From positions 1 to 20,107 of the IMG/VR virus record IMGVR_UViG_3300037961_004808: 20,107 nucleotides of DNA, one strand, 5' to 3'. Under the pieces are notes generated by a model, which was not told the DNA's origin, did no database searches, and saw only the letters and a list, made by a program, of their open reading frames with translations. Of this stretch, positions 13,078 to 19,700 are shown piece by piece; the stretch's first letter is position 1; every line of letters begins with the position of its first letter. The position numbers were made by a program, and so were the translations under genes. The stretch comes from a virus.

Positions 13078-13104
13078 TTATATCGGTGCTATGTAGCATC
13101 AATG

Positions 13105-13120
13105 AGTGGTATATACCACT
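13105..13120. promoter_or_regulatory. Perfect 16-bp palindrome in the divergent control region
   Basis: The sequence AGTGGTATATACCACT is its own reverse complement. It lies between the minus-strand late promoter (13128-13135) and the virion-protein ATG, so it would be in that gene's 5' leader. It is also just upstream of the plus-strand -10 box at 13139. It could be an operator for a dimeric repressor or an RNA hairpin. Only the palindrome itself is certain. Confidence 0.55.
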
Positions 13121-13127
13121 GTCACAA

Positions 13128-13135
13128 TATTTATG
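13128..13135 (-). promoter_or_regulatory. Late promoter CATAAATA before the 441-residue virion protein
   Basis: The minus strand reads CATAAATA in the divergent intergenic region, 51 bases before the ATG at 13077. It is one of the three best NATAAATA matches that lie outside coding sequence here. Confidence 0.75.
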
Positions 13136-13138
13136 TGT

Positions 13139-13144
13139 TATAAT
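13139..13144 (+). promoter_or_regulatory. Sigma70-type -10 box TATAAT for the plus-strand island
   Basis: A perfect TATAAT on the plus strand lies 22 bases before the ATG at 13167. No good -35 is visible at the usual spacing; the nearest candidate is CTGTCA at 13119-13124, only 14 bases away. It may be a host-polymerase (early or middle) promoter for the island. Confidence 0.5.
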
Positions 13145-13166
13145 TAGTTTGGGATTACGATATTAC

Positions 13167-13835
13167 ATGAAGACTCTCTGTGTACTTATTGGACCTCAAG
13201 GATCGGGCAACCATCTGTGGTCAAAAATCTTCTCGTTACATGAAGAAGTCTTTGGGTGGAAAACGCTGCTCGATAATTATTGGGAAGCACACCGATTATC
13301 CGAACCCTTCGCAGAGTATTGGAAAGACCCTGATACCTTGCGAACCTTTGATTGGTCTCAAAGTGAATATTTCTTTACATCAGTTAGCATCCCCCTCGGC
13401 ATAAAATCTCAAGGGACCTTACGTTGTCCAAACGTCGTGCAGTTTTGCACTGTCGCCGAGAGTATGGGGATCAATGTCAAAGTGCTCGTCTTAGGACGAG
13501 ATAAAAATATTCTAAATCATCAACAGTCACGCATACGTGAGCAAGATACCCTACATTATTTCTTAGATCAATTACAAAAAATCAAAAACCCAACATATCT
13601 TAGTTACGAACTTTTGTATCTTTACAGGAGAGAGTATCTAAAATCATTAGATGTTGGTATTCCTATTGCTTGGTATGATCCAAGAGTTCAAAAGATTTTA
13701 GAAATTGATGCTAACCAAAAATACATTTCTTATGTAAAATCTAGTCCTCTAGATGATTGCAATAGGACAGGAGTTCCTTCTAAATGGAACCCCAATAAAA
13801 CATATGTAGATCTTGATAGAGACCTGTGCTGCTAA
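13167..13835 (+). CDS. P-loop / sulfotransferase-like protein, copy 1
   Basis: This is a 222-residue protein. An N-terminal strand leads into GPQGSGNHLW (9-18), a phosphate-binding loop of the kind seen in sulfotransferase-like P-loop proteins. It is followed by GW at 30-31, NYW at 37-39 and EPFAEYW (46-52). A central LVLGRDKN (107-114) would be the second nucleotide-binding strand with the Arg typical of PAPS-binding enzymes. DANQKYIS lies near the end. The substrate is unknown, and a nucleoside-kinase-type ATPase is an alternative. I chose the ATG at 13167, because an upstream GTG (13086) would add 27 residues read through the palindrome and promoter, and the paralogue aligns from about residue 2. 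Its stop overlaps the next ATG by one base (TAATG). It is clearly AT-richer than the structural genes. Confidence 0.8.
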   Translation: MKTLCVLIGPQGSGNHLWSKIFSLHEEVFGWKTLLDNYWEAHRLSEPFAEYWKDPDTLRTFDWSQSEYFFTSVSIPLGIKSQGTLRCPNVVQFCTVAESMGINVKVLVLGRDKNILNHQQSRIREQDTLHYFLDQLQKIKNPTYLSYELLYLYRREYLKSLDVGIPIAWYDPRVQKILEIDANQKYISYVKSSPLDDCNRTGVPSKWNPNKTYVDLDRDLCC

Positions 13836-14017
13836 TGGGCAAATATGATTTTGGTGGAAGGTCAGTAGAACCTTGTAACTTGTTACTTCTTATTAGTGAC
13901 CTAGAAGGAACCTACCAAAATCTCAAGTATATGGGATTTGGGGAAGATATGAATATCATTGATGAAATGAAAAAGAAATACTATAAACTCTACTTTCAAA
14001 GTCTAAAGAAAAAATGA
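13835..14017 (+). CDS. Small unknown protein, 60 residues
   Basis: It starts MGKYDFGGRSVEPCNLLLLI and ends in a strongly basic, Tyr/Lys-rich helix. No signal peptide or convincing membrane segment is seen, and the hydrophobic LLLLI is too short. I prefer the ATG at 13835, which overlaps the upstream TAA by one base, over the in-frame GTG at 13826. The stop overlaps the next gene's start (ATGATG context). This tight packing on both sides is the main reason to believe the gene is real. Family and function are not recognised. Confidence 0.55.
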   Translation: MGKYDFGGRSVEPCNLLLLISDLEGTYQNLKYMGFGEDMNIIDEMKKKYYKLYFQSLKKK

Positions 14018-14625
14018 TGTTATTCAGTGGGTGTTCATTTACCTATGGTGCCGAACTAATAGATCGAGATAACGAAAGATTTTCTTCACATTTTCATTCT
14101 CACAACATCGGTGAATGTGGTCTATGTAATGATGCTATTGTTAGAAATACTATATCTGAAATAGAATCAAACCCAGGAAAATATGATACTGTTGTAGTTC
14201 AGTTTACCCTACACACTAGAACCGAGGTTCCTCTTCAAGACGGGTATCTTCCCATCACACCTCAAAATCTAAAACTTGAATCCCGTAGGGTAAAGCGATG
14301 GAAATTTGCAAAAGCAATATACAATAATGAATTGTGGACTATGCATATTGGTAAGGAAAATATGCATAAGAATATATTTTTTATGCAGACATTCCTTAGA
14401 ATGAAAGGATTGAAATATGTATTTCTAAGTATTGACGGACATAATCCAAAACATAATCATTTCACAGACTCGTGTTGGAAAAATATGATAGATAGTCCAA
14501 TCATCAATATCCATGATATAATTGGATTTAGATGTGACCATCCACAATATTATGATGGTTACGGGGGTCACCCCAATTCACTAGGTCACCGAGTCATCGC
14601 TAATGCAATCAAAGAAAGACTATGA
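14014..14625 (+). CDS. SGNH/GDSL hydrolase-like protein
   Basis: This is a 203-residue protein. Block I is GCSFTYG (6-12), placing the nucleophile Ser at S8. A NIGECGLCND region (31-40) supplies the Gly/Asn of block II. VVVQFTL (60-66) fits a block III strand. GGHPNSLGHRVIANAI (184-199) is the block V histidine motif. SGNH enzymes are esterases, acyl-hydrolases or deacetylases acting on sugars and lipids. The Asp normally two or three residues before the catalytic His is missing (Y183, G184 and G185 precede H186; the nearest is D181), so the triad may be altered. Either Met (14014 or 14017) could start it. It sits between two related P-loop genes and overlaps both neighbours. Its DNA is very AT-rich. 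Confidence 0.75.
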   Translation: MMLFSGCSFTYGAELIDRDNERFSSHFHSHNIGECGLCNDAIVRNTISEIESNPGKYDTVVVQFTLHTRTEVPLQDGYLPITPQNLKLESRRVKRWKFAKAIYNNELWTMHIGKENMHKNIFFMQTFLRMKGLKYVFLSIDGHNPKHNHFTDSCWKNMIDSPIINIHDIIGFRCDHPQYYDGYGGHPNSLGHRVIANAIKERL

Positions 14626-15313
14626 CGGTCCATTGTATGCACCATGGTCTAGTGTAGTAAAAGGAAGGCGACAAAGAAACAAAAAATTGCTTATCGTTAC
14701 TGGTCCACAAGGATCTGGTAATCATTTGTTTGCTAGGGTGTTTAGTCAGCATCCAGATGTTATTGGTTGGGAAAAACTAAAAACAAATTATTGGGTTCCC
14801 TCTGATGAAGAACCCTTTGCTGAGTATTGGGTAAACCCAGACCTTCTAGAATTTCCTGATGGAGATTATTTTCTAGCAAATGTAAGCGTCCCATTCTTTT
14901 ATGATGGAGTAAGACAGACACCAAAAATTTCACAGGTATGTCATCAAGCATTACATCTTGGCGTTCAACCTATCGTTGCAATCATTACTAGAGATCAAAA
15001 TATCAACGCTGTACAACAAAAAAGAGTCGGTGGGGAAGTTACCCTACCGACTGCCATGGAGTATTACAAGCATATTATCAATGACGAGTGGATTGAAACT
15101 CACTTCTTGTCACATGAATCCTTTTTCCTTTGGGGAGAAAATTATATCAAGTACGTTGCGGAGATGATCAACTTCCCTGTAACGACCAAAGGCATCGACC
15201 AGTATATAACCAGCGATGCCAATGGAAAGTATGTAAGTGCCATCGACCATCACTGGTTAGATGACACTATTAGGGAAGGTCGCAAACCGTTCAAACAACG
15301 GCGAGCGGAGTAG
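14603..15313 (+). CDS. P-loop / sulfotransferase-like protein, copy 2
   Basis: This 236-residue protein is clearly related to the island's first gene. It has TGPQGSGNHLF (33-43), GW (55-56), NYW (62-64), EPFAEYW (70-76), the central IITRDQNI (127-134) and DANGKYVS near the end. It has an extra basic N-terminal segment of about 28 residues (MQSKKDYDGPLYAPWSSVVK and RRQRNKK). The start at 14603 overlaps the SGNH gene by 23 bases. I keep it because no other in-frame ATG precedes the P-loop. The PAPS-like phosphate loop and distal Arg suggest transfer of a sulfuryl or phosphoryl group to an unknown acceptor. The 3' end overlaps the convergent di-iron gene by 23 bases. Confidence 0.8.
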   Translation: MQSKKDYDGPLYAPWSSVVKGRRQRNKKLLIVTGPQGSGNHLFARVFSQHPDVIGWEKLKTNYWVPSDEEPFAEYWVNPDLLEFPDGDYFLANVSVPFFYDGVRQTPKISQVCHQALHLGVQPIVAIITRDQNINAVQQKRVGGEVTLPTAMEYYKHIINDEWIETHFLSHESFFLWGENYIKYVAEMINFPVTTKGIDQYITSDANGKYVSAIDHHWLDDTIREGRKPFKQRRAE

Positions 15314-15965
15314 CGGTGTTCTGGCGGGAGATCTCCAGGAGATCAGAACGCATACGCTCAACCAGAGCGAGAACACGGTCTTGCAGTTCAGCACTACCTT
15401 CGACCAAACGACTCAGAGCACGACCACCCAGGTTGGAGTGGAAACCTTCGTCTTTGGCGATAGCGGCATAGCGGGAAGAGATGAAGGTGTCATCAACACA
15501 TTCTGCCATCTCGTTCCAGACTGCTTCTGCACGACCTTCAGCAACGAGCTGATAGGCAGCGAGGGCAGCGGGATCTTCAGCAGCTTCATACTTCTCAAGC
15601 AGGGAAGCACCCTTTGCCTGAGGCTTTTCTTCTTCAGCAGCAAATGCAGCAGCAACATCCAGTTCTTCACCGGTGATGTGCTCGATCACTTCCTTGACCA
15701 TACGGAAGTGTTTTGCTTCGTCGAGTGCCTGCTTGCTCAGCAGTTCCAGATCACGGACATCCGTGCTTGGGTCGGCAGAAGCAACTTGACCAGCGATGGC
15801 ATACATGTTTTGAGCTTCGTTGACCATGCGGCCACGGAAATGCTCAACCAGATACTCATCGCTAGGGGAGGAGGCAAAGAAACGTCGCACATTCTCACGT
15901 GAAGTGGCGAACAGTTCTTTATTACCTTCCTTGATTTTCTTTACAAAATCGGTTCCAGAAAGCAT
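15291..15965 (-). CDS. Ferritin-like di-iron carboxylate protein
   Basis: This 224-residue, all-helical protein has the four-helix di-iron ligand pattern. E50 lies in VNEAQNMY, E83 and H86 in DEAKHF (an ExxH), E143 or E147 in VAEGRAEAVW, and E173 and H176 in KDEGFH (a second ExxH). This is the ligand set of rubrerythrin, ferritin-like and di-iron oxygenase proteins, so it probably binds two irons and reacts with oxygen or peroxide. An Ala/Glu-rich insert (102-132) separates the two halves. It does not resemble cyanobacterial aldehyde-deformylating oxygenase closely, although the length is similar. Substrate is unknown. An AGGAT ribosome site and a CTAAATA motif precede it. It may be an auxiliary metabolic gene supporting host redox or iron chemistry during infection. 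Confidence 0.8.
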   Translation of the reverse strand: MLSGTDFVKKIKEGNKELFATSRENVRRFFASSPSDEYLVEHFRGRMVNEAQNMYAIAGQVASADPSTDVRDLELLSKQALDEAKHFRMVKEVIEHITGEELDVAAAFAAEEEKPQAKGASLLEKYEAAEDPAALAAYQLVAEGRAEAVWNEMAECVDDTFISSRYAAIAKDEGFHSNLGGRALSRLVEGSAELQDRVLALVERMRSDLLEISRQNTATPLAVV

Positions 15966-15986: not shown

Positions 15987-16505
15987 TTATTTAGTGTACC
16001 GAAAATAATAACGTAAGTGTCCTTGTGGAGAAATTTCCTCCTCCAAACACTCTAAGTTATAGTTGTATGTAACGGCGATACTATTTATTTTTTCTTTTGT
16101 CCATTGATACCAAACAATATCTTCATACTCTGCCCAATCATGAGCAATACCCGGATTTACCCTGAAGATACATTCTTTCAACCACAACTTATCCAACATC
16201 TTGATTTGGGAATCAATAGTTTCCTCATCGCCAAAATTGATTGACCCTAGACACAGTGCAATGTCTGCCGGAGGAAAATCGTAGGCATAGTAATCTTCTA
16301 ACGACAGACGCAGATGTGCCTCTGAGTTATATGGGTCTATGCCTATTAGACCTGGTATGAGATCGCGAAAACGATTATACCCACAACCAACATCTAAAAC
16401 GCTGGAAGGGTTCTGGGCATTTACGTGTTCAACAACTTGGTATCCAGAGTGCTCATAACCTTCAAAGTTATGGTCTTTCCAGACACCCCCAAAATAAGAT
16501 TGCAT
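15987..16505 (-). CDS. Class I SAM-dependent methyltransferase
   Basis: This is a 172-residue protein. Motif I is VLDVGCGYNRF (36-46), followed by GLIGIDPYN (52-60) with the acidic D57 expected to bind the SAM ribose, and DIALCLGSINFGD (81-93) at the motif IV position. It is compact, with the later strands shorter than usual, but it looks complete. No target-recognition domain or DNA-methylase catalytic motif (such as DPPY) is visible, so a small-molecule, sugar or protein substrate is more likely than DNA. The ATG overlaps the stop of the upstream small gene (TAATG). The start is MQSYFGGVWKDH. Substrate is unknown. Confidence 0.85.
   Translation of the reverse strand: MQSYFGGVWKDHNFEGYEHSGYQVVEHVNAQNPSSVLDVGCGYNRFRDLIPGLIGIDPYNSEAHLRLSLEDYYAYDFPPADIALCLGSINFGDEETIDSQIKMLDKLWLKECIFRVNPGIAHDWAEYEDIVWYQWTKEKINSIAVTYNYNLECLEEEISPQGHLRYYFRYTK
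15988..15994 (-). promoter_or_regulatory. Late promoter-like CTAAATA before the di-iron protein gene
   Basis: The minus strand reads CTAAATA(A), fused to the methyltransferase stop: its last codons are ACT AAA TAA. It lies 22 bases before the di-iron gene ATG, the same arrangement as other late motifs in this window. Confidence 0.5.
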
Positions 16506-16733: not shown

Positions 16734-19700
16734 TTAGAACGATCCTCCATCGATCGTTACGTTCTCCAAGGATCGAGTTGTGCCAGAACAGGAGATCACC
16801 TGTGAAGCGCCAGCACAATCGTTGACGTAGAGAGAACCAACTTCCAATCCAGCGTAGGCACTTGGAGTTAGAACACCGGAGTTCTCAGCAGCTTCGCTTG
16901 CGAGCACGAAGCGAGCAGCAGAGTCATCCCAGAAGACCGCTGCCTTCTTGGCAGATCCACTGTAGTAGTTCATCACCAAACCAACGTCTTTGTTGGTGTC
17001 GCTGCTCAGGTTACCGCCGTCAACCTTTTGGAGTTCGAGGAGAGTATCCTCAATCGTGGTGTTGACAGTATTGATCTGAGTGGTGTTACCGTTGACAACC
17101 AAGTCTCCAGTGACGGTCAGATTGCTGGTAGCAGTGATTGAACCGTTGACGGCAAGAGTTGATCCATTGAACGTCAGGTTAGCACTATCCTCAACAGCAC
17201 CAGAAGATCCTGCAAGGACGACACGACCAGAAGTTAGGTCAGACACCGTAGCGGAGGACAGAACTGTCTCAGCGCCTGTGATACTCGCTCCATTGGAACC
17301 GTTGATAGCACCACCAACTCCCAGAGTAGAACCGTCCCAGGTCAGGTTAGCATCATCTTCCAAGGCACCGGCACTACCAGCAGTTACGATGCGACCGTCA
17401 GTCAGGTCGGAGACCGTTGCGGAGGACAGGACGGTTTCGCCACCGGAGATGTTTGCACCGCCGTTTCCGTCAAGTGCACCGCCGACCGTCAGACCAGCAC
17501 CCACAGTGGCGGTGGTGGACTTCATGAAGGTATTGGTGGAAATACCCGTTACATTGATTTGAGCGAAGGTTGCTCCAGACCCACCGCCGAGAACGTAGGA
17601 CTTCAGGTTGCTGGCAGTCAGTTTGCGGTTGGTTCCGTTAGCACCATCATCCACAAGCAGAAGGTCTGCGTCAGCAAGACTACTGGTAGCAGTAGCACCA
17701 TCAATGTCCAGAGCACTTGCAGCGACCTTGTTAGCAGTGCTAATCGTGTTGAGTTTGCTGTCAGCAATAGAACCCGCCAACTGTGCGTTGGTGATGGTAC
17801 CAGTCAAACTGGTCGTCGGTAGGTTCGTTGCGTCCTGGAGGTCAAAGGCAGGAGTTGCATCAGCAGCACCAAGTTCAACCTCTACACCACCAAAGGAAAC
17901 ACTATCATTTGCCAACTGTGCATTAGTAATCGTGCCAGTTAGGTTTGTAGTTGCTAGTGCACCGTCAAAGGTAGTAGCAGTGGCAATGCCGCCGACCGTC
18001 AAGTCGGTGACCGTGGTCAGAGAAGTCAGTTCAACAACGTTACCCAGGGACTTCCAACCCACCATCTCCAGTTCATCACCAGCGGTGGCAGCGTTAGTAA
18101 GAACTGCGGTGCTTCCGTTCGTGGCAGCGTAATCAGTACCAGTTACGAGACGAACACCGTTGAGGTACAGATCAAGGAATCCTGCTTGGTAACCGGCGTT
18201 GAAGGTAAAGGTGGTTTGACCTTGAGTTGCTGTCTTTACCTCTGTAGTAGTAAAGGTGGTAGAAGCAACACCAGTCAGAACAACGTCAGCAACTCCATCT
18301 TGAACGATGAAGTCTTCGAGACCTTGACCTCTAAACTTGAATGCAGTAACAATACCAGCAGAACCAGAGGCACTGGAAACACCGACCAGGGAAAGCAGAC
18401 CGCCAGCAGCGTTACGAACGTCGGTTGCAGTAATAACACCACTAGAGACCACGTTACGCAGAGAAGCGTCGCGAGCAGTCAGTTCTTCGGTAACCGTCAG
18501 GTCAGTGCTGACAGTTGCAGCACCCGTGACAGCAAGAGTTGAACCATCAAAGGTCAGGTTTCCGCTGTCTTCCAGTTCACCACCGGAACCAGCAAGAACC
18601 ACCCGATTGTCAGTCAGGTCAGAAACGATTGCAGAGTTTGCAGTCAGACCACCAGTTACGGTCAAACCAGAAGCGATGTTAGCACCGCCGTCAACGTCGA
18701 GTGCGCCAGTAACAGTTGCACCAGCACCAACCTTCAGGGTCGTGGTGTCGGCAAACGTTACAGTACCAATACCGCTAACACTGATGGCATTGAAGTTAGC
18801 ACCAGCGCCACCACCAAGGACATATTCCTTGACGCGAGACATTGCCGTCTTGCGGTTAGTGCCGCCAGCACCATCATCCACAAGCAGAAGATCTGCATCA
18901 ACCAGGTCAGCACCAATATCCGTGGCACCGTCAATGTTGACAGAAGCAGCGTCAACTACAACAGAACTGCTCAGAGCAGTTGCACTCAGGATCTCAGTGT
19001 TGTTGACCTTGAGGACCTTGCCAGAAGCAAGGTTGATGTTTTCTGATGCACCCCAGTTATCGCCAGTTGCTTCAAACTGGAAGGTCTTGTCACCATCACC
19101 AGAATCAACTGTGATACCAGCACCATTTGCAGCAGAATCATCAGCAGCACCAGTGGCAACCTGGATGTTCTTATCAACAATATTGACGACCGTAGAATTC
19201 ACAGTCGTAGTGGTGCCATCAACTTGGAGGTCACCAGCAATCACAACCTTACCAGTGTCATCGCCTACAGCAGCAGGGTCAATGGTAAGGGTTGCTGGAC
19301 CGGAGATAGTGTCGGAGGTAACACGGATTGCAGAACCTTCAGCACCCGTGTGGAATGCAGTACCATTTACAACACCACCTACTGTCAAACCAGAAGCGAT
19401 GTTAGCGCCACCGTCAACGTCAAGAGCACCAGTAACAGTTGCACCAGCACCAACGGTCAGTGTGGTCGCCTTAGCAAAGGTTACGGTAGAAATACCACTA
19501 ACGTTGATGGCAGCAAAGTTTGCACCTGCACCGCCACCAAGCATGTAATCCTTGAGGTTGCTTGCAGTGACCTTACGGTTTGTACCGTTAGCACCGTCAT
19601 CAACAACCAGCAGGTCAGCATCAACAACACTGGTTGTAGCGGTAGCACCATCAATATCGAGGGCACTCAAGGCAACCTTATTGGCGGTAGATACCGTGTT

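Follow-up and report, generated by a model that had tools for sequence, protein, structure and literature searches.

Four overlapping plus-strand genes lie beside neck and fibre-like genes of an uncultured phage, and the question that this locus raises is whether they form one cassette with a common task or parts of a different unit. Here, we analysed a stretch of 20,107 nucleotides (the window; positions 1 to 20,107 of IMG/VR record IMGVR_UViG_3300037961_004808), which belongs to a virus record of 111,966 bp with a G+C content of 43.3%. The features discussed below are as follows:

13078 to 13166, putative divergent promoter region: -10-like TATAATTA on the plus strand; late-type motif ATAAATA on the minus strand, at 13134
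13167 to 13835, plus strand: P-loop A, 222 aa, core gene; paralogue of P-loop B, in a clade of its own (support 100/99)
13835 to 14017, plus strand: DUF7212 protein, 60 aa, cargo; PF23848, E 4.5e-30; phrog_741
14014 to 14625, plus strand: SGNH-like protein, 203 aa, cargo; motifs GCSFTYG and GGHPNSLGH
14603 to 15313, plus strand: P-loop B, 236 aa, core gene; 26-aa N-terminal extension special to the clade
15291 to 15965, minus strand: diiron ferritin-like protein, 224 aa, core gene; invariant ligand set; AlphaFold2 pLDDT 90
15987 to 16505, minus strand: class I methyltransferase-like protein, 172 aa, core gene; VLDVGCG motif

Arrangement and composition of the locus

The positions of the open reading frames confirmed four plus-strand genes at 13167–15313, overlapping by 1, 4 and 23 bases. 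P-loop B further shares a convergent 23-base overlap with the diiron gene, as it does in most relatives in which the set adjoins gp13. A preliminary description had placed all other genes on the minus strand; this holds for the recognisable neighbours but not for the 111,966-bp record, which carries plus-strand genes at about 48–52, 64–66 and 94–98 kb. Its two 60-base G+C samples (16/60 at 14341–14400 and 32/60 at 18541–18600) were exact on recounting, and its AT-rich island is real, with a G+C of 0.379 against 0.433 for the record, about 2 standard deviations lower. Equally low values were found in 37 of 2,197 stretches of island length, a count that takes in those overlapping the island itself, and since stretches at 53–57 kb are comparably low, the island is AT-rich but not unique. 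The two inner genes, with G+C of 0.317 and 0.350, are the main source of the low value; P-loop A and P-loop B stand at the 12th and 28th percentiles of per-gene G+C in the record.

Co-occurrence and gene order

The fetched viral loci, together with the window, collapsed to 103 contigs, all uncultured viral, and co-occurrence was counted over contigs with at least 5.5 kb of flank on both sides. Under this condition, every contig with the methyltransferase also encoded the diiron protein and P-loop B (32/32), every one with the diiron protein encoded P-loop B (28/28), and every one with P-loop A encoded the other three (25/25). The exceptions were three contigs (L096, L097 and L098) in which P-loop A was undetected, one of which (L097) also showed no detectable diiron gene. 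The carriers are uncultured ocean and lake phages, and the set occurs in two gene orders: P-loop A and P-loop B on the plus strand followed by the diiron and methyltransferase genes on the minus strand, next to gp13 and with a convergent P-loop B/diiron overlap of 23, 17, 14 or 4 bases; or the methyltransferase on the minus strand followed by the diiron protein, P-loop A and P-loop B on the plus strand, in other surroundings. The functional unit crosses the strand boundary and takes in the diiron and methyltransferase genes. We hold with high confidence that these four genes form a conserved module in which the space between P-loop A and P-loop B is a slot for exchangeable cargo. Apart from the nearest-identical pairs, the module genes are under purifying selection (dN/dS <0.4).

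That the set is conserved in two gene orders speaks for a genuine shared pathway, most likely a small one of oxygenation, methylation and group transfer. Since every contig was recovered using module genes as queries, relatives without the module are under-sampled, and among close relatives linkage can mimic function; both points would suit a quartet linked by shared descent alone, as co-inherited neighbours without a common pathway. This explanation is nonetheless very improbable, as the set is kept across two gene orders, beside different neighbours and in bacterial clusters, while the contents of its slot turn over. In our literature searches, the module was nowhere described, and a defence system was rejected as a candidate, with no PADLOC match.

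Kinship and history of the P-loop pair

At 35% identity (E 8e-39), P-loop A and P-loop B are paralogous to one another; the preliminary description had missed this kinship, as well as the overlap of P-loop B with the diiron gene. The tree splits the P-loop A clade from P-loop B with support of 100/99 and places the P-loops of bacterial and archaeal assemblies within P-loop B; as it separates A from B, the duplication is older than the split into the two gene orders. The two are an ancient and tightly conserved paralogue pair, and they often adjoin directly with a 4-base overlap (ATGA). Neither they nor the diiron protein matched anything among 50,697 isolate phage records, 1,019 of which encode a gp13 homologue. 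Scans of IMG/VR, in turn, yielded 168 stretches encoding relatives of P-loop B, 272 for P-loop A and 341 for the diiron protein.

These distributions bear on the proposal that the four plus-strand genes are one acquired block that alters a surface sugar or a component of the virion, in which the neck/fibre site was taken to mean that the products act on the virion. In its favour, the locus adjoins gp13 and fibre-like genes in one lineage, the island is AT-rich, and genes for SGNH, cytidylyltransferase and carbamoyltransferase proteins at other places in the record fit work on saccharides. We nevertheless consider the proposal quite unlikely. The inner and outer genes have unlike distributions and histories, so the same four genes do not always occur together, and acquisition as a single block was rejected. 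The quartet of the second lineage has another order and other neighbours, and part of it lies in bacterial chromosomes; action on a surface sugar or virion component is possible but gains no support from this. P-loop G+C equals that of the contigs (mean difference from the own contig -0.006 for P-loop A and +0.002 for P-loop B, over 71 contigs), and foreign composition was rejected as a sign of their acquisition. Moreover, P-loop A and P-loop B proved core and syntenic throughout the gp13-side contigs whose length allowed both to be seen. Given this synteny and the matching G+C, two of the four genes are not recent cargo, and the label of acquired cargo stands for the inner two alone, the DUF7212 and SGNH-like genes.

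The cargo slot and its passengers

The DUF7212 protein matched PF23848 with 103.8 bits against a gathering cut-off of 27. Its family was found in 368 cyanophage records, and the matches in the isolate collection were all to cyanophages. The SGNH-like protein shows its two motifs by eye, as candidates for the N-terminal Ser block and the C-terminal Asp-His block of SGNH hydrolases, lacks the canonical DxxH spacing and has no Pfam SGNH match. Its gene occupies the slot only in the closest relatives, and in one contig (L006) it has been deleted, with the scars MMLLSA and NAIKERL-stop corresponding to both of its remaining ends. Elsewhere, DUF7212 and SGNH, the slot contents of the window's clade, give way to a bilin reductase (PF05996; L119:9706–10323 and L144:9819–10457), a DctP solute-binding protein, a GFO/IDH/MocA oxidoreductase or a phosphoribosyltransferase-like protein. 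Other slot proteins are sulfotransferase-like by eye without a Pfam match. The DUF7212 and SGNH-like genes are interchangeable passengers, the true cargo in the window's clade.

Separately, four consecutive plus-strand genes in the 111,966-bp record (G000 49062–52181; L019:9062–12181) are SGNH-like by eye, with G.SWT.G starts; the two that were tested in Pfam gave no match. The record also holds three carbamoyltransferase-like stretches and three radical SAM genes at 45–46 kb and 101–110 kb.

The 26-aa N-terminal extension of P-loop B (14603–14680) carries the motif DYDGPLYAPWSSVVKGRR, which recurs in 126 cyanophage records, where it lies in short or unannotated frames whose neighbours are unrelated genes, among them denV and the sliding clamp gene. 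The motif resembles a short mobile peptide or a DNA element, here fused to P-loop B. As DUF7212 and this motif were found among isolates only in cyanophages, and a Fer2 ferredoxin is encoded in the 111,966-bp record, a picocyanobacterial host is likely on sequence grounds.

The putative divergent promoter region

TATAATTA lies upstream of P-loop A at a near-constant distance in 75/75 contigs (1.6% of shuffles), and in 67/75 it stands back to back with a minus-strand ATAAATA. The reported cyanomyovirus late promoter is NATAAATA (PMC2984593). The element at P-loop A was missed by a standard promoter scan because such a scan requires a -35 box. We infer that the P-loop pair is transcribed from a host-type promoter, and transcription of the plus-strand pair would then perhaps be earlier than that of the surrounding late genes. 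The palindromes GGTATATACC and TGTATATACA were observed within the 13078–13166 region in 36/75 contigs and may represent an operator.

Relatives in bacterial chromosomes

A genome scan identified diiron homologues (57–62%) in Massilia atriviolacea, in Janthinobacterium sp. UMAB-56 and on two MAG contigs; the latter could be phage DNA that was assigned to a cellular bin. The clusters of Massilia and Janthinobacterium lie on contigs of 410 and 260 kb and resemble the phage module in holding diiron, P-loop B and methyltransferase homologues together. They differ from it in lacking P-loop A and in carrying extra genes (cupin, sulfatase-family, NMT1-type ABC transporter, nucleotidyltransferase-like and DUF455), as well as a second P-loop protein, which in Janthinobacterium weakly matches Sulfotransfer_3. 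Among 295 genomes sampled from the family, the Oxalobacteraceae, the P-loop was found in 2.

Identity of the P-loop proteins

The AlphaFold2 model of P-loop B (pLDDT 87) found its nearest Foldseek neighbours in tyrosylprotein sulfotransferases (E 1.2e-4, with modest TM-scores of 0.41–0.48); adenylate kinases followed close behind. All aligned members share the loop GPQG[SA]GNH, which reads GPQGSGNH in P-loop B. The 5'-phosphosulfate loop of sulfotransferases has a Lys or Arg before SG(T/S), as visible in L242 and L244 (GLPRSGST), and this residue is absent from the loop in every aligned member of the P-loop families; likewise, no member satisfies the Walker A pattern GxxxxGK[ST], its Lys being missing. 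On these motifs, a canonical kinase and a canonical sulfotransferase were both rejected. The P-loops have no sulfotransferase match in Pfam or NCBIfam, the profile libraries recognise no known enzyme in them, and two bona fide Sulfotransfer_3 proteins, when compared by profile, matched only locally, at the P-loop (probability 14%). Searches of PDB sequences returned no significant hit for either P-loop B or the diiron protein. The likeness to PAPS-dependent sulfotransferases resides in the fold neighbours of P-loop B and, in our reading, in an N-terminal loop with an HPDV-like segment after it and in a conserved Arg at the site expected for the 3'-phosphate-binding Arg. The P-loops differ in having, again in our reading, a Gln in place of the 3'-phosphate Ser and in lacking the Lys/Arg before SG. 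Sulfo-type transfer chemistry is a plausible assignment for P-loop A and P-loop B, for which we would put the odds somewhat short of even.

Could the pair instead be kinases or NTPases, with the module modifying nucleotides or nucleic acid and not transferring sulfate? In the structural comparison, adenylate kinases rank next, and P-loop kinases serve in phage DNA hypermodification. This assignment is unlikely, given that GPQGSGNH is without the Walker A Lys, that the partial bacterial clusters adjoin a sulfatase-family protein and an NMT1-type transporter, and that the partner P-loop protein there weakly matches Sulfotransfer_3.

Identity of the diiron protein and the methyltransferase

The residues E50, E83xxH86, E143 and E173xxH176 of the diiron protein are invariant in 20 sequences and constitute a ferritin-like ligand set, the E, ExxH, E, ExxH pattern of the diiron oxygenases PaaA/PaaC, AurF and R2-like. 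Its AlphaFold2 model (pLDDT 90) is all-helical with a suitable helix order, and the nearest folds are TenA, CADD and PaaA, so that the protein also resembles TenA/CADD-like helical proteins. It matched PaaA_PaaC, Ribonuc_red_sm, AurF, Ferritin_2 and R2-like oxidase weakly, below the curated cut-offs throughout (PaaA_PaaC 21.5 against 28.5 bits, the others lower). The methyltransferase carries the class I motif VLDVGCG, and its bacterial homologues exceed the Pfam cut-off for Methyltransf_11. No curated family takes the P-loops, the diiron protein or the phage methyltransferase above its cut-off.

A proposed pathway and its meaning

The best explanation overall, to which we assign a probability of about 0.5, is a conserved four-enzyme module with a slot between P-loop A and P-loop B that makes or decorates a small molecule or saccharide. 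The diiron protein would use O2 to oxidise a substrate, perhaps supplied by the record-encoded ferredoxin, and the methyltransferase would add a methyl group. P-loop A and P-loop B would be group-transfer proteins with a sulfotransferase fold that bind nucleotide or PAPS, and they may act as a pair. Jointly, the module enzymes would make or decorate their product inside the infected cell, and cargo genes would contribute further steps peculiar to a clade, for instance hydrolysis of an ester by the SGNH protein. Another auxiliary metabolic gene cassette of aquatic phages, hemO-pcyX with alaS (PMC11480375), is similar in that metabolic genes are carried together, and bilin reductases also occur in the slot; the module described here differs from it in being a fixed four-gene core with a cargo slot inside.

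More tentatively, abundant uncultured T4-like aquatic phages may share an undescribed O2-dependent biosynthetic pathway that leads, during infection, to a specific small molecule or saccharide and comprises a diiron protein, a methyltransferase and a non-canonical enzyme pair of sulfotransferase fold, with a related chromosomal cluster in the Oxalobacteraceae pair and the gap between the P-loop genes serving as a loading site; we regard this broader proposal as possible but doubtful. With about 100 uncultured contigs and the P-loop and diiron genes in no isolate record, the quartet is a marker of a large group of phages that cultivation has overlooked. The slot between P-loop A and P-loop B is a clear example of a fixed site at which T4-like phages load auxiliary genes, and the clusters of Massilia and Janthinobacterium provide a route to the product through ordinary gene knock-out and metabolite comparison.
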